A stretch of DNA of 41,947 nt from a virus, in IMG/VR virus record IMGVR_UViG_3300012005_000017, positions 1-41,947 of that record. One strand, written 5' to 3'. A model generated the notes under the pieces. The model had not been told where the DNA came from and ran no database searches. It saw only the letters and a list, made by a program, of their open reading frames with translations. The position numbers and the translations under genes were made by a program. How positions within the stretch are numbered: position 1 is the first letter of the stretch; each line of letters opens with the position of its first letter. Below, in pieces: positions 10,121 to 41,947 of this stretch.

Positions 10121-11644
10121 TTATCTCATTTGCGTTGGCGGCATCCAGACGCTCGCCTTGAGGAGGTGGCCGTACTTGAAGTAAGCAAGCATGTCGATAG
10201 CGTCGGAGATGTGCGTGGTATAGCGTTGGTCGAGGTGATCTTTCTTCTCGTCTGTCTTGACCTTCTCAATGCCGTGCCCGCCTTCGCGGGCTTCGGCGTT
10301 GCTCATGGATTCAATACCAAATTTGCAGTTGTGTTTGTTCCAGCAGAATCGCGGCAGGTTGCTGTGGTTGTTCCGCATCGCTACGGCCCAGAAGTTATAC
10401 TTGTCAACGTGAAATGGCGCGGCGCCGTAATACTTTGGTATCACATTCCAGCCCCGTTTAGTTAAGGTGTCTTTAACTATTTCGGCATAAGTTTTTGGGA
10501 TGTTGCCGCCGCGGCCCATTGCTGTCTGATCATACCAGTAAAACACGTCGCGGCAGGTTGACCATGTGTAATAGTCGCACCATTGGTTTACCAGGTCTTC
10601 CGTCAGCTTTGGTGAGTCGACGCTAAAGGCGCTTATGAATTTACAGGTGTTCAATGTTTCCTGGGCGGTAACGATGCAATTGAACTTTCCATAATCTAAA
10701 GCGATATCCATTGGTAATCCTGGTATATGATCGCCGTCCTGCCTGCAGTCAAGGTGTTTAAAATCGAGCAGGTTATAACCGTTTTTGTCTACGATTCCTT
10801 CCAGGTAATCATTGTTATAGGCCGTATATGTGTGACCGCCGTAAACGACATCCTTGTCGCTGAACAATGGATAAAAGCCGCCTTTCAACGCCCGCGGGCG
10901 TTTGTTATCAATTTCGATAGCATATTCATACGGCGACATGATCCGCTTTTGATCGGCGAACCATCCTGCCGGCAGATTTTCGGCATTAATGTGCGAGCTC
11001 GCGCGGATGTAGATTATTTCTTCAGGGTGAAGCAACGCTTCTTCCTGGTATTTATACATGAATTTCCCGGTTTGCGTCCGGGGGATTGATGATGTATAAG
11101 TTTGGTTCCGGTAACGCCGGCATTTTTCAAACCTCGCTTTTTGTCCGCGGACAGTGGCCAGCGTTTCAGATTGAAACTTGATTGGATCCAGCAGCGCGAA
11201 TTCATCGGCCATGCCTGATGCAGTGTTTAAGCCTCTTGAATTAACATCCTGACTAAGGATGAGATATGTTGCCCCGTTGTACCAATAGATCGCGCGGCCG
11301 TAATCTAAAGGCGGTTCATACGCTTCCGGCCAGCGCCATTTAGCAGGCGGTTTTTTACAGACGAAGAAATGCAGGTCCTTTTTATAACCAAGCGATTCGA
11401 GCGACTGAATGGTTGACGGTAACGTCCTGGTTAATGCCTGCTGGTAGGTTGCCGCCTGAAGAAAGTTAGTGGATCTGGGCATATCATGCACCACATCTAT
11501 CATTTCATCAGCTAACACGGTTGATTTTCCAACGCCGCGGCCGCCTTCAATAACTTTAACCGGCTGCTTGGCTTTGCGAACCATTAGCTGCATCAGGTTG
11601 CGGCTAATGCGTTTGCGGGGAAGGTTTAATTCAGGAAGGATCAT
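10121..11644 (-). CDS. terL: Terminase large subunit (507 aa)
   Basis: The packaging motor: an N-terminal ATPase pumps DNA into the prohead and a C-terminal nuclease cuts it. Walker A is GGRGVGKS at residues 34-41, and the acidic GMADEFALLD (about 144-153) fits Walker B. The RNase H-like nuclease has Asp317 in DIALDYGKF and the acidic pair Asp481/Asp484 in HISDAIDMLAYF. The length is normal. It overlaps the small subunit by 14 bp. The downstream portal gene is separated from it by the inverted cassette at 9287-9783. Confidence 0.92.
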   Translation of the reverse strand: MILPELNLPRKRISRNLMQLMVRKAKQPVKVIEGGRGVGKSTVLADEMIDVVHDMPRSTNFLQAATYQQALTRTLPSTIQSLESLGYKKDLHFFVCKKPPAKWRWPEAYEPPLDYGRAIYWYNGATYLILSQDVNSRGLNTASGMADEFALLDPIKFQSETLATVRGQKARFEKCRRYRNQTYTSSIPRTQTGKFMYKYQEEALLHPEEIIYIRASSHINAENLPAGWFADQKRIMSPYEYAIEIDNKRPRALKGGFYPLFSDKDVVYGGHTYTAYNNDYLEGIVDKNGYNLLDFKHLDCRQDGDHIPGLPMDIALDYGKFNCIVTAQETLNTCKFISAFSVDSPKLTEDLVNQWCDYYTWSTCRDVFYWYDQTAMGRGGNIPKTYAEIVKDTLTKRGWNVIPKYYGAAPFHVDKYNFWAVAMRNNHSNLPRFCWNKHNCKFGIESMSNAEAREGGHGIEKVKTDEKKDHLDQRYTTHISDAIDMLAYFKYGHLLKASVWMPPTQMR

Positions 11645-19427: not shown

Positions 19428-19460
19428 GTTTGTTCAGTACGATGAGGATTGGGGGAAGTG

Positions 19461-19560
19461 GGCAGTTGGCAGTAGCAGTTGGCAGTTGAAGAAGGTTAAG
19501 GGGAGCGCGAGGGGGACTTGGAAGAAATAGGCAGTTGGCAGTAGCAGTTAGCAGTTGAAG
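19461..19560. repeat. Pair of 31-bp direct repeats (GGCAGTTGGCAGTAGCAG...)
   Basis: Copies at 19461-19491 and 19530-19560 start with GGCAGTTGGCAGTAGCAG and end GCAGTTGAAG, with one difference between them. Each copy is itself built from CAGTTGG/CAGTAG units. Function unknown. Confidence 0.85.
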
Positions 19561-19590: not shown

Positions 19591-19617
19591 AAAAGAAAAA
19601 AGACCGGGCAACCGGTC
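19591..19617 (-). terminator. Rho-independent terminator of the early operon
   Basis: On the minus strand the stem GACCGG/CCGGTC with a TTGC-type loop (19617-19602) is followed by a T-rich tract (19601-19591). It is the first terminator after 19711-19974, so the TR-like sequence at 19674-19712 lies in the 3' untranslated end of the early transcript. Confidence 0.85.
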
Positions 19618-19673
19618 GTATATCAAAAGCTAAGGAAGTATACAGGGCCTGCGCTGCTTAATATCATTCAAGC

Positions 19674-19712
19674 AAGTTGGGCGCTGAGGTTCGTGTTCGT
19701 GTTCGTGTAATT
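19674..19712 (-). other. Template-repeat-like sequence (candidate DGR TR)
   Basis: A 39-nt minus-strand block rich in AAC and ACG codons (core ACGAACACGAACACGAAC, then CTCAGCGCC) aligns without gaps, in codon register, to 20455-20493 and 20084-20122. It differs from the first at 10 positions, all A in this block, and from the second at 12, eleven of them A. It has 15 A in 39 nt. It overlaps the stop of 19711-19974 and lies before the terminator. A template repeat of a diversity-generating retroelement is the favoured reading. A third, unselected or decayed variable copy is the alternative. Confidence 0.6.
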
Positions 19713-19974
19713 AATAAACGTGTGGGTTAAATGACGGCGCCTCACCAAGATAGTAATACTTGCCATCAACATGTATGGCTGTTTCGTAAAACCGTATGCC
19801 ATATTTTTCCCGATTACACTCTCCATTTTGATTCCATTTTTGATCAACATAATTTGAGGCTACATATCCACAACCGATATGGTGATAAAACAACTCGTCT
19901 ATTTCATCCATTGGCTTTAAAAATTCATCAAATGACAAATCTTCTTGTTTTTCAAAATCTTCTAAAGTTTTCAT
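19711..19974 (-). CDS. Small acidic hypothetical protein, last early gene (87 aa)
   Basis: It begins MKTLEDFEKQEDLSFDEF, is acidic, and ends GKYYYLGEAPSFNPHVY. The final segment is loosely similar to the 'KYYAWFEWSPSL' stretch of the hypervariable protein upstream. It is possible, though weakly supported, that this gene is a diverged or frameshifted relative. Its stop overlaps the template-like block at 19674-19712. No function recognised. Confidence 0.55.
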   Translation of the reverse strand: MKTLEDFEKQEDLSFDEFLKPMDEIDELFYHHIGCGYVASNYVDQKWNQNGECNREKYGIRFYETAIHVDGKYYYLGEAPSFNPHVY

Positions 19975-20005: not shown

Positions 20006-20365
20006 TTATAAGCGGTGCAAATCGTTTATGAGGTCAATATTATCCTTGGTAAATTTTTCAGCCGTGTTCCGGTCTTCGAACCAAAAGCGGGCGCCGAGGT
20101 ACGCGCTCGTGACCGTGCAAACCGTGAGCCGGAACACCAAAGCACCAAGCGAAGGAGACCATTGTAACCAGCCAGTATATTTATATTGGCTATAGTTACT
20201 AAAGTCAGGTACCCATTCGCCGTTGGTGGCTTTTTCTATGATTTCAAGTTTGTAACCGGCGATTATGCGCTTCGCAGTGATCTCCGGCAATCCTTCAACT
20301 CCAGGTAATAGATCCGGACTGATGCCTATTTTTTTGCAGGCGGCTTCAAAAGGTGTTTTTTTCAT
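20006..20365 (-). CDS. Hypervariable WSPSLG-family protein B (119 aa)
   Basis: The N-terminal half (FEAACKKIGISPDLLPGVEG, then KRIIAGYKLEIIEKATNGEW) is the conserved domain of a family I recall from Bacteroidota phages and conjugative elements. There it is followed by an aromatic 'W/F-x-x-S-x-S-x-G' segment, a highly variable stretch and a 'GxRLxF' end. Here the conserved WSPSLGALVF leads into variable residues RLTVCTVTSAY, then LGAR. The C-terminal helix is AEKFTKDNIDLINDL. There is no signal peptide. DNA flanking the variable part is identical to that of the neighbour 20371-20862, while the rest of the two genes has diverged. Function unknown; it is expressed with the early genes. Confidence 0.75.
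   Translation of the reverse strand: MKKTPFEAACKKIGISPDLLPGVEGLPEITAKRIIAGYKLEIIEKATNGEWVPDFSNYSQYKYTGWLQWSPSLGALVFRLTVCTVTSAYLGARFWFEDRNTAEKFTKDNIDLINDLHRL
20084..20131 (-). other. Variable segment B (candidate DGR VR)
   Basis: This segment encodes R-L-T-V-C-T-V-T-S-A-Y-LGAR-F. Compared codon by codon with 20455-20502, the codons before LGAR are either identical or differ only in positions 1 and 2 (examples: GTC/AAC, AGC/GAC, TAC/GGC). The left flank (20139-20163, 25 nt) and the right flank (20087-20099, 13 nt) are identical in the two genes. The part aligned to the template-like block is 20084-20122. Confidence 0.65.
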
Positions 20366-20370
20366 GGAGA

Positions 20371-20862
20371 TTAGATTTGAGGGTTTAAAAATTCATTCCA
20401 TTCAGTGTTAAATGTTTTGGCGATGTATACCATTTTTGCGTCCGTGTTCGTGCAAAGGCGGGCGCCGAGGCCCGCGTCCGTGTTCGTGAAAAACGCGTCC
20501 CCGAACACAAAAGCACCAAGCGAAGGAGACCATTCAAACCACGCGTAATATTTGGCTTCATTGTCGGTGTAATCAGGCTCCCATATCGAGCCGTCTTCTT
20601 TCCTGTTAAATTCATCAAAAATAATCTGCAGCTTAAAGTTACCGTTCGATGAAACATGCTTTTTTGTTTTAGGATAGGGGAACGGCAATGAGGCGACCGG
20701 GTCGATGCCGGCAGCGCTGCAAACGTCAGTATAGCTTTTAAATATATCTATGGGATTTGCATAAGTAAGCCCGAACGCTGTCGCCAGCGCTTTTTTTAGT
20801 TCGCCTGTCGCCTCGTTATGGGCTTTCATGGCGTTTTCTTTGTTGATCTGTAGTGTTTCCAT
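20371..20862 (-). CDS. Hypervariable WSPSLG-family protein A (163 aa)
   Basis: Paralogue of 20006-20365 with a longer N-terminus (METLQINKENAMKAHNEATG). Alignable parts are the central KLQIIFDEFNRKEDGSIWEP, the aromatic YYAWFEWSPSLGAFVF, the variable stretch GDAFFTNTDAG, then LGARL and a C-terminal helix (MVYIAKTFNTEWNEFL). It contains a second copy of TNTDA after LGARLC; the underlying ACGAACACGGACGC is duplicated. It ends 6 bp before the start of the paralogue, so they form a pair. Function unknown; the hypervariable part suggests binding to a changing partner. Confidence 0.75.
   Translation of the reverse strand: METLQINKENAMKAHNEATGELKKALATAFGLTYANPIDIFKSYTDVCSAAGIDPVASLPFPYPKTKKHVSSNGNFKLQIIFDEFNRKEDGSIWEPDYTDNEAKYYAWFEWSPSLGAFVFGDAFFTNTDAGLGARLCTNTDAKMVYIAKTFNTEWNEFLNPQI
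20455..20502 (-). other. Variable segment A (candidate DGR VR)
   Basis: Variable codons encoding G-D-A-F-F-T-N-T-D-A-G before the conserved LGAR. The part aligned to the template-like block (20455-20493) differs from it only where the block has A: for example AAC to GAC, ACG to GCG, AAC to GGC, CAA to CGC. Left flank 20510-20534 and right flank 20458-20470 are identical to gene B. Confidence 0.65.
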
Positions 20863-26221: not shown

Positions 26222-26407
26222 TTATAGGTTGGTTTGTGTGGTCACCAGGTAAGTGGGCAGGTAACATTTATAATCAGCATCGTAATGGCAAACGCTGCAA
26301 AACTGCAACAGCCGGTCAGCCTCATTGTATAAAACACCGCAGCCGGGGCATTTCCGTGGTAGATTGAGATTGAGCTCATCAATCACAAAGTCTTTCATTT
26401 TTGACAT
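26222..26407 (-). CDS. Zinc-ribbon-like small protein (61 aa)
   Basis: Two Cys pairs, CPGC (in LPRKCPGCGVLY) and CSVC (in LLQFCSVCHYDAD), about 17 residues apart, form a treble-clef or zinc-ribbon pattern. Such proteins often bind DNA or RNA polymerase. The start is 2 bp after the stop of 26410-26592. Regulatory or replication accessory role by inference. Confidence 0.6.
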   Translation of the reverse strand: MSKMKDFVIDELNLNLPRKCPGCGVLYNEADRLLQFCSVCHYDADYKCYLPTYLVTTQTNL

Positions 26408-26409
26408 AC

Positions 26410-26592
26410 TTAGTTGATTTTAGGATCGTCGTAATAATAGCTGTCCAGCTCCTCATTAAGCTTTGTAAGCTTATTCACCAGGCGAAGCTTGGCAGGCGCT
26501 GCCGTAGTATCCTCAATCTCATTAGCCAGCTTTAACGCCCGTTTCTCAAGGTCAAGCCTGTAGGTTTCGGTTCCTTTTTCTGCTTTGCTCAT
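26410..26592 (-). CDS. Small helical early protein (60 aa)
   Basis: A charged coiled-coil-like protein: MSKAEKGTETYRLDLEKR, then LRLVNKLTKLNEELDSYYYD. The ATG overlaps the stop of the upstream 41-aa frame (ATGA at 26592-26589). Function unknown. Confidence 0.5.
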   Translation of the reverse strand: MSKAEKGTETYRLDLEKRALKLANEIEDTTAAPAKLRLVNKLTKLNEELDSYYYDDPKIN

Positions 26593-29014: not shown

Positions 29015-29237
29015 TGTTTCGTAAATGTTTCGCAAGGAAATTGTAAATACCGTGGGAATGAATAGGTTATGGGGGTTTTGTTACTCCTATTGGGATCACG
29101 TTAATAAACGAAAACGGCCTCTAAATATACGTGGAGGCTGTTTTTATGTTTCGCACTCGAAAATAGTAACGCCCTTCCAGCCGGTTTTGAGCCACTTATT
29201 ATAAATTGTTTCGCAAATGCTTCCTATTGTTTCGCAA
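29015..29237. promoter_or_regulatory. TGTTTCGCAA repeat cluster, candidate attP arm sites
   Basis: Five same-orientation copies of TGTTTCGYAA-like sequence start at 29015, 29026, 29147, 29207 and 29228; the last abuts the integrase ATG. Repeats of this kind beside a tyrosine integrase gene suggest arm-type binding sites around an attachment core. The core itself is not identified. Confidence 0.6.
29111..29145 (+). terminator. Terminator after the repressor gene
   Basis: The stem ACGGCCTC (29114-29121) with GAGGCTGT (29134-29141, one G-T pair) is followed by TTTTT. It isolates repressor from integrase transcription and lies inside the TGTTTCGCAA cluster. Confidence 0.7.
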
Positions 29238-30421
29238 TGAATAAGAGTGAATTTAACCAGGGCGTCTCCTTTAAGGTCTTCGCCCATGATCATGTAAGGG
29301 CCGATAAGACTAATTCCCTATTTCTCCGGGTGATCATCGAGCGGAAAAAACGCGAGTTTAATTTAAAGACAAGCTGGCCGTCAGCCTTTTTTGATGCCGA
29401 AAGGCAGGAGGCAAAACCGAGACATTCGCGCGACAAAGAGGTGGAAAATGTCAACATGATCATTAACGAAGCCAAGGGCCGGGCAAGCCGGATCAAGCTG
29501 AGGTACTTCACCGATGGCAAGTCGCTTTCATTGGATATTTTTCAAAAGGAATTTGAAAACTATGAGAGCCGAGACAATTTCCTTTTTTACTGGTCGGAGA
29601 AAATTGAGGTACTTTATAGGAAAGGCAACGTCGGCAAGATGACCATGATCAGGCAAAAAACCAACCATTCGAGGTTTAAGCAGTTTTTGGGCAATGCCTC
29701 GTTCTTCTCGATGGGCGATATCACCAATGAGTTGATATTGCACTATCAAAACTGGCTGCGAAAAAAAAAGCTGCTTAAATACAACACCACCACCAACGCG
29801 CTGAAAGGCTTGCAGACCTATGTTAACCATGCCGTAGATGACGGTTTTAAAATTGCTGACCCCTTTAAAAATATTACGCTCAGGTATGTACCTGGTGAGC
29901 GCCAGGCGCTGGACCGTGAAGAAATAGCGAGGCTGCGCGAATTATTGCTCCATCCCGAATTAATGGGACAGGAGCGCGAAGTACTGCGTAAATTTCTTTT
30001 CAGCTGCTATACCGGCATAAGGATAAGCGACAGCGCCCAGGTAAGCAGCGGGATGATAAGAGAGGGTATTTTAAGGCTTGCAACGGTAAAAGGCCGCAAA
30101 TTCGGCAAAGAGGTAAGTATTAATTTACCGGTATATGCGAAAGAACTGATCAATGGCCGTACCGGCCAGCTTTTTGAGGACATTGCCGATCAAACCTGCA
30201 ACGCCTGGCTAAAGATCATCGCCCATAAGGCAGCAATAAAAAAGCGGCTTACTTTTCATGTAAGCCGCGATACTTTCGCGACGCTCTTTATCGAGATGGG
30301 CGGCGATGTCTTTACCTTGAAAGAGATCCTCGGGCACGCCGATATCCGGACTACCCAGATATATATTAAAATGAGCGATCAGCGAAAAGCCGATATGATG
30401 CGCAATTTTGATTCGCTATGA
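29237..30421 (+). CDS. int: Tyrosine recombinase / integrase (394 aa)
   Basis: Site-specific recombinase for integration and excision. All catalytic residues are visible: Arg262 in CYTGIRISD, a Lys in VKGRKFGKE (285-291), His341 and Arg344 in FHVSRDTFATL, His367 in LGHADIRTTQ, and the nucleophile Tyr376 in TQIYIKMSD. The N-terminal part (12-60) is an arm-binding-type domain and residues 100-205 are the core-binding (SAM-like) domain. The type is that of Bacteroidota conjugative and phage integrases. The start is fused to the TGTTTCGCAA cluster. It overlaps the convergent gene 30416-30697 by 6 bp. Confidence 0.93.
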   Translation: MNKSEFNQGVSFKVFAHDHVRADKTNSLFLRVIIERKKREFNLKTSWPSAFFDAERQEAKPRHSRDKEVENVNMIINEAKGRASRIKLRYFTDGKSLSLDIFQKEFENYESRDNFLFYWSEKIEVLYRKGNVGKMTMIRQKTNHSRFKQFLGNASFFSMGDITNELILHYQNWLRKKKLLKYNTTTNALKGLQTYVNHAVDDGFKIADPFKNITLRYVPGERQALDREEIARLRELLLHPELMGQEREVLRKFLFSCYTGIRISDSAQVSSGMIREGILRLATVKGRKFGKEVSINLPVYAKELINGRTGQLFEDIADQTCNAWLKIIAHKAAIKKRLTFHVSRDTFATLFIEMGGDVFTLKEILGHADIRTTQIYIKMSDQRKADMMRNFDSL

Positions 30422-40623: not shown

Positions 40624-41947
40624 TTATTTTGAATAATCAGATAATAAAATATCGTCCGTAGTTGGAGCGGTTACAAATGTTATTGTGCTTCCAGAAATGG
40701 TATAATCTGTTGTTAGGGCTAATCTCAAACCGTTTTGATACAATCTCACCGTCCCCGATGTCGGTGTGTTCGCAAGGGTGAATGTTACATTACTGCTATT
40801 TACCGTCCCCGACGGTATTTCGCTCCATACAAAGTTTGAAGCGGATAATCCGCCGCCGCTCCCGTTCGCCGCAGCCGTAAGCCTTCCCTTCGCATCATAG
40901 GTGAGGTTACAGCTTGTACATGAGCCTGCGCCTACGCCGGTAGTCGCAAGGGTTGTTGCAAAACTTCCTGTACCACCGCCCGTAATGTCACCCGTTAGCG
41001 TTATTGTCTGGTCCCCTGTATTTGTGCCTGACTGATTGTTTAAAGTTGCTACCGATGTGGTTAACCCTGTTAGGTTAGTAGCTGTTGCCGCATTACCTGT
41101 CGTAGATTGATTAAAAGTTGGGAAAGTATTGCCTGCTCCCGTCAAATCCTTATTTGTCAAAGCCACCGAATTGCTAAGCGTTACCGGAAAGGTTATCGCC
41201 GTATTGCTTGCCGCCGTAATGAGGCCTTTTCCATTTACCGTGAATGTTCCCACGTGCGTCGCATCGCCGAAACTTCCGGCATTGCTGTTTACCGTCGGCA
41301 ATGTCGCCGCAACGCTCCCGCTTCCCGATGCGGTTACGTCCCCGGTGAGCGCGGTTATGCCGCCGCCTGTCGTATATCCATGAGCGGTCAAAAGTGGTAT
41401 GATTGCCTTGGTAAACAGTGTGTCTACCCCAACTGAAACTATACTATCTCCTGGATACCCGCTCTGATCACGGTTCATTAATATATGGTCGTATTTTATA
41501 TTTGATGCCGCCATTGAGCTGACATTAATAGACACATGAGGATTAGGCCACAGCCAAACAGGGCCTCCGATAAACATATTATTAGCCTGAAAATTGCTGA
41601 CAGCCAAATTGCCGACAGAAAAATTAGTACTTGAAATGCTATCTATAGTTTGAAGTCTTGTCCAATGATTATTCCTATTGAACAAATCGTAATAAACAGG
41701 GGCTGCACTTCCTGTGCCTGTTCCTGTTTGGGTTAGAAATTTTTGCGTGGCCGCAGTGTTTCCGGGCAACCTTGTTGCTGTGCCTGATGTTCCACCATAG
41801 ATAATATCTCCTAATGTGGTCATAGGATTTGTTACTTTCCCATTTAACTGTGTTTGTATAGAGCTTGTCGGGTCATAATAGCTTTTGGTGATGCCGTTAA
41901 TCTGATTAACGGTTGGATTAGGATATGTGCCGTTTAAATCCCCCCCG
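40624..41947 (-). CDS. Tail fibre protein, 3' portion (continues from the left end of the window)
   Basis: The frame is open from the right edge to the stop at 40624. An internal ATG at 41823 (MTTLGDIIYGGTSG) is not the true start, because the frame continues upstream as GGDLNGTYPNPT. This sequence is shared with the left end, so the gene is the continuation of 1494-3. The repeat-rich body (LTGDVTASGSGSVAATLP, LTGDITGGGTGSFATTLA) is the common Bacteroidota fibre motif. The C-terminus (NVTFTLANTPTSGTVRLYQN) looks like a knob domain. Full length about 905 aa. Confidence 0.85.
   Translation of the reverse strand, partial: GGDLNGTYPNPTVNQINGITKSYYDPTSSIQTQLNGKVTNPMTTLGDIIYGGTSGTATRLPGNTAATQKFLTQTGTGTGSAAPVYYDLFNRNNHWTRLQTIDSISSTNFSVGNLAVSNFQANNMFIGGPVWLWPNPHVSINVSSMAASNIKYDHILMNRDQSGYPGDSIVSVGVDTLFTKAIIPLLTAHGYTTGGGITALTGDVTASGSGSVAATLPTVNSNAGSFGDATHVGTFTVNGKGLITAASNTAITFPVTLSNSVALTNKDLTGAGNTFPTFNQSTTGNAATATNLTGLTTSVATLNNQSGTNTGDQTITLTGDITGGGTGSFATTLATTGVGAGSCTSCNLTYDAKGRLTAAANGSGGGLSASNFVWSEIPSGTVNSSNVTFTLANTPTSGTVRLYQNGLRLALTTDYTISGSTITFVTAPTTDDILLSDYSK
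41850..41947. repeat. Right copy of the 98-bp terminal direct repeat
   Basis: Identical to bases 3-100. See the left copy. Confidence 0.9.

Follow-up and report, generated by a model that had tools for sequence, protein, structure and literature searches.

The window, i.e. the whole stretch of 41,947 bases that was analysed, appears to be a complete record because its ends overlap by 98 bp (positions 3–100 equal 41850–41947). Its source is a temperate Bacteroidota phage, as assigned from a large terminase about 30% identical to that of Polaribacter phage Leef_1, together with an integrase. Searches of viral contigs with V1, a 990-aa protein and an 87-aa ORF of the window returned no close relatives of the whole phage. 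The features of the locus, which bears the probable relic of a diversity-generating retroelement (DGR), are as follows.

10121–11644, large terminase.
19602–19617, minus strand, terminator-like hairpin GACCGGTTGCCCGGTC followed by T6, 3′ of the relic, where relatives hold the spacer RNA and the RT.
19643–19712, minus strand, the whole probable relic, i.e. the 3′ half of a template repeat (TR) plus the first ~30 nt of a spacer, as delimited by blastn to locus L064 and by RNA model R1.
19674–19712, minus strand, the block, probably the surviving 3′ half of the DGR TR, judged by A-only differences and by TR matches to loci L001 and L064.
19674–19688, minus strand, IMH*-like 3′ end of the TR, CTCAGCGCCCAACTT, counterpart of the IMH-like CTCGGCGCCCGC(C/T)TT in V1 and V2.
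19711–19974, minus strand, unrelated 87-aa ORF, with its stop codon directly next to the relic.
20006–20365, minus strand, V2, 119 aa, matching phrog_11581 (E 5.3e-9).
20084–20155, minus strand, variable repeat (VR) in V2, placed by alignment with full-length TRs and by the V1/V2 identity pattern.
20371–20862, minus strand, V1, a small soluble protein of 163 aa, matching phrog_11581 (E 6.5e-11).
20455–20526, minus strand, VR in V1, aligned with the full-length TRs of L064, L065 and L001; 81% nucleotide identity with the VR in V2.
29237–30421, integrase.

The block, read on the minus strand, comprises the codons AAT and TAC, then ACG AAC three times, then CTC, AGC, GCC, CAA and CTT. It aligns without gaps to 20455–20493 in V1 and to 20084–20122 in V2, exactly at the coordinates and in the codon register that the initial annotation had given. 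Adenine makes up 15 of its 39 bases. All 10 differences from V1 fall at an adenine of the block (hypergeometric p 4.7e-6), as do 11 of the 12 differences from V2 (p 8.5e-6), the exception being CTT>TTT; these counts were recomputed and agree in full with those first noted. V1 and V2 themselves differ at nine positions of the block-homologous stretch, eight of them at block adenines, and the AAC codons of the block correspond to several different N-N-C codons in the two genes. When all 39-mers of the window were compared on both strands, none was close except the block, V1 and V2 themselves. The lowest number of non-A mismatches of any 39-mer in 100 dinucleotide shuffles of the window was 4 to V1 alone, compared with 0 for the block. 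A chance origin of the pattern was rejected, since the minimum against V1 and V2 combined was 10 non-A mismatches in the shuffles and is 1 for the block.

The VRs lie near the C-termini of the two targets, at residues 113–136 of 163 in V1 and 71–94 of 119 in V2. The identity between V1 and V2 is 85% over 11 codons at the VR 5′ end and 81% over the VR, compared with 51% upstream and 58% downstream of it, and a peak of identity between targets over the VR is also present in the loci L064 and L129. Outside the VR, dN is well below dS for both genes in comparison with L129 and L064 (dN 0.28 and dS 1.36 for V1), a substitution pattern by which V1 and V2 still resemble protein-coding genes kept under selection. 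The AlphaFold model of V1 (pLDDT 91.7) is composed of helices, a β-hairpin and C-terminal helices, with helices coming after the VR, and the most variable VR positions among 57 homologues are 121, 125, 127, 129 and 131. No segment of V1 reaches the hydrophobicity of a membrane helix. Foldseek gave no PDB match for the model at E<=0.001, in a comparison whose lectin-fold control model was itself poor (pLDDT 34, probably owing to a four-sequence alignment); in a viral structure library the matches were uncharacterised phage proteins, one of them crAss-like. Neither target has a match in Pfam, V1 has none in phage records, and no further V-like genes were found in the window.

An exact search of IMG/VR viral contigs with a 26-nt template core retrieved L001, a locus of a different phage in which this core is located directly 5′ of a 340-aa RT and 3′ of a homologous target gene. 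Pfam RVT_1 recognises this RT, and the PDB entry closest to it is 8ub7 (E 1e-40), which we take to be the RT of the Bordetella phage DGR. The L001 RT also carries the IGxxxSQ motif, which is typical of DGR RTs (PMC3521204). With this RT as query, 61 viral loci were obtained, most of them with A-only TR/VR differences; with the target family as query, 42 loci were obtained in bacterial genomes, nearly all from Bacteroidota and most arranged as V1-V2-TR-RT. The layout of this Bacteroidota family is V1-V2-template (about 75 nt)-structured spacer RNA-RT. L064 is intact and syntenic with the window (V1-V2-TR-RT), and so is L129 (V1-V2-V3-TR-RT plus one distant target). The latter, from a genome of the family of Pedobacter arcticus (taken as Sphingobacteriaceae), is the closest intact relative found, with 62% amino acid identity to the window in V1 and about 66% in V2. 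A search of the relic DNA against 400 genomes of that family matched only G356. The equivalent of the block is a non-coding template 5′ of the RT in L001, L064, L065, L008 and L129. The RT of L064 (5755–6804, minus strand) has IGNYLSA in place of IGxxxSQ, i.e. no SQ dipeptide. In L155, L156 and L161 the RT starts 524 nt after the TR rather than about 60–110 nt as elsewhere, which suggests that a segment may have been inserted between spacer and RT.

Across 74 TR/VR pairs of the family, 1101 changes are at A and 3 at other bases; the pairs were chosen by a finder requiring mostly A mismatches, so this purity arises partly by construction, whereas the number of pairs and their RT-adjacent position do not. 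In the last ~15 nt of the TR, the differences AGC>GGC, CAC>CGC and CTA>CTT relative to the VR are fixed in almost every locus. The window presents a GC-rich CTCGGCGCCCGC in the VRs against CTCAGCGCCCAAC in the TR, at the same positions that are fixed family-wide. By analogy with the IMH*/IMH of BPP-1 (summarised in PMC12875486), we read this 3′ segment as an IMH*/IMH pair, which would not be rewritten. The four block differences within it (AGC>GGC, two in CAA>CGC, and CTT>TTT) are not counted as independent mutagenesis, those of CAA/CGC and AGC/GGC having been reassigned after the family comparison. Its IMH*/IMH character would account both for the changes common to V1 and V2 at block positions 27, 34 and 35 (numbered from 0), in line with the caution of the initial annotation that the shared changes are not all independent, and for the single non-A difference, CTT in V1 and TTT in V2. 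This exception tracks gene type in relatives too, with GARL in V1-type and GARF in V2-type targets. Outside the segment, the differences at A number 7 of 7 for V1 and 8 of 8 for V2.

The homology exceeds the 39-base block and reaches into spacer sequence, giving a relic of 70 bp (19712–19643 in blastn against L064). It is 84% identical to L064 over 70 nt; to L001 it has an exact 26-nt TR match and 88% identity over 59 nt. At the other end, the homology of the window to full TRs stops at the first codon of the block. The VR 5′ segments of V1 and V2 have no counterpart in the relic, and the window contains no full-length TR. The place of the TR 5′ half in relatives (and of the third target gene in L129) is occupied by the 87-aa ORF, which has no match in Pfam, PHROGs, phage records or viral contigs. 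On the 3′ side, the ~580-bp gap at the expected RT site contains two copies of the repeat GGCAGTTGGCAGTAGCAGTT(G/A)GCAGTTGAAG within 19459–19560.

In an alignment of 26 sequences, the spacer RNA of the family has 12 base pairs in two hairpins, a conserved CCTTGCC-TGGCAAAAA one and GGGCGTTGGTA...GAAAACGACC, and all 12 pairs show two-sided compensatory changes. The covariance model (alignment A7, model R1) scores L064 at 94.7 bits and L094 at 79.8 bits. In the window, about the first 40 positions of R1 align and the following 75 are skipped, and both covarying hairpins of the structured spacer RNA are absent 3′ of the TR. R1 also detects a spacer in the tail-fibre-type DGR locus L017 (33.5 bits). 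The family spacer RNA could be a new Rfam-type family; an Rfam search with queries other than the intact spacer copies found nothing. PF00078 and tblastn searches of the 41,947-base record found no RT. The DGR signature proposed in the initial annotation is thus borne out with respect to origin, given relatives that share the template core, have homologous targets and carry an adjacent DGR-type RT. It does not extend to a working DGR in the window, where the RT and the spacer RNA are missing and the template is represented only by its 3′ half.

Our preferred reading, with a probability of roughly 0.87, is that the block is the TR 3′ half of a compact phage DGR which a deletion or a replacement has put out of action. 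The order of events is reconstructed from the template, the two targets, the DGR family and the losses as observed. Formerly, RNA comprising the TR and the spacer would have been copied by the DGR-type RT of the phage, with random bases placed opposite A, and the resulting cDNA would have taken the place of the variable repeats in V1 and V2. Loss of the RT, of the spacer hairpins and of the 5′ half of the TR would have followed. The 87-aa ORF would now adjoin the 5′ break, and V1 and V2 would be frozen variants. The last rewriting presumably used a full-length template, because the homogenisation of V1 and V2 covers the VR 5′ segment absent from the relic; retrohoming from a full-length TR would explain this, and the present half-TR would not. 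A longer true template elsewhere had been foreseen from the outset as an objection to the block. The shared 5′ segment does point to such a template, but the longer one would be the same template before it was cut. It was apparently the TR of this very lineage, because over 39 nt the non-A bases of V1 and V2 have 0 and 1 mismatches to the relic, compared with 2 to 4 to the TRs of L001, L064, L065 and L008. Speaking against the relic reading, decay of the TR half is slight, which requires either a recent loss or a constraint that still acts on the segment.

The possibility of an RT in the host or in another prophage has to be weighed as well. V1 and V2 would then belong to a non-autonomous DGR, and a co-resident prophage or the host would supply in trans the RT and template RNA by which they are still being rewritten. 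One TR can indeed serve distant targets, as in the crAss-like phage cr52_1 with genes 57 kb apart and in L065 with targets 9 kb from its own TR; one source (2840957180) yielded two DGR-bearing viral records; and L094 and L179 retain a TR and spacer without an adjacent RT. Continued diversification in trans is unlikely: the RT is recruited by the spacer RNA, which is missing here too, so that the window TR has none of the hairpins that an RT would need. Moreover, the non-A bases of the VRs fit the relic of the phage itself, and the TRs of other phages differ at 2 or more of 39 nt. It is just as improbable that the targets, possibly with the shortened template, are serviced in trans and that the RT-less loci of the window, L094, L098, L136, L179 and L189 constitute an unrecognised parasitic or satellite class of DGR.

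The record is an assembled virus contig and a misassembly is possible, in which case an intact DGR would be present in the phage and its RT would have dropped out of the contig. Assemblies can break at VR/TR repeats (PMC8008677), but neither junction here is in VR sequence, an 87-aa ORF, itself coherent, and a terminator flank the relic, and the two contig ends join through the 98-bp overlap, which makes such an artefact very improbable. A third copy of the target gene that has decayed, its adenines being due to an AT bias of the decay, is scarcely credible as the origin of the block and was rejected, although a 60-aa ORF spans the block out of frame and the neighbouring genes are paralogous. 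In the five intact relatives named above, the equivalent of the block is non-coding template sequence 5′ of the RT; the similarity runs past the block into the conserved spacer and not into the 3′ end of a gene; and AAC is replaced by several N-N-C codons, with V1 and V2 also differing from each other at block adenines. This further objection, raised along with the original observation, therefore falls away, and the block is best read as the remnant of a template.

An RT-independent search of viral contigs with the frequent TR 3′ end gave 64 loci, 63 of them with enough downstream sequence. An RT follows the TR in 60 of the 63 and none is adjacent in three (L136, L179 and L189), which are apparent RT deletions. 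L179 retains the whole spacer and the first RT codons, the RT being otherwise missing. The three differ in breakpoint, the DGR stopping inside the spacer RNA or immediately 3′ of it. Among bacterial genomes, L094 (5551–6570) has two targets, a TR and a full spacer without an adjacent RT, in a transposase-bearing prophage of a Chitinophagaceae MAG, which from its ORFs we read as Mu-like; RVT_1 has no match in this 4.6-Mb MAG, which may be incomplete. L098, also from the bacterial genomes and with the same caveat of possible MAG incompleteness, has a TR and lacks spacer and RT.

The BPP-1 DGR (mtd-avd-TR-brt) shares with the window the A-specific transfer from TR to VR and the IMH/IMH* at the 3′ end, and with the family relatives a TR upstream of the RT, a structured spacer in between and an RT of the 8ub7 type (E 1e-40). 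Unlike in BPP-1, the targets are soluble proteins of 119–163 aa instead of a tail fibre, two or three stand in tandem, and the window copy has neither RT nor spacer hairpins. The compact Bacteroidota V1-V2-TR-Sp-RT DGRs (L064, L129 and most of L067–L108) have homologous targets, the TR and the spacer start in common with the window and, unlike it, are intact. In cr52_1 (NC_055888.1), the RT is 52.5% identical to that of L001 and the target gp91 is a homologue of V1 and V2; in contrast to the window, its TR also serves a tail protein, with the small target 57 kb away. The cr52_1 TR (26401–26490; L066, L195 and L002) has 22 A and 0 other differences from the tail gene gp18, and 12 A and 0 other from gp91 (83524–83928).

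DGRs with an inactivated RT and intact repeats have already been described (PMC3521204), so the RT loss in the window is not of a new kind. The window resembles these DiGReF-described cases, and a DGR minus one RT copy, in that the TR/VR repeats outlast the RT; it differs from them in having no RT at all and only half of the TR. The mutation machinery is of a known type and the window copy is a further case. A DGR finder anchored on the RT would miss this locus because the RT is absent and the TR is halved, yet the DGR is recognisable from a 39-base remnant without an RT, and the class is one that RT-anchored surveys miss by design. Through the remnant, a compact DGR family came to light whose spacer RNA is short and strongly covarying and whose targets are paired, small and soluble; it is a convenient system for the minimal needs of a DGR and for the role of targets other than tail fibres. 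The RT-less loci form a natural set for the fate of hypervariable proteins once diversification stops.
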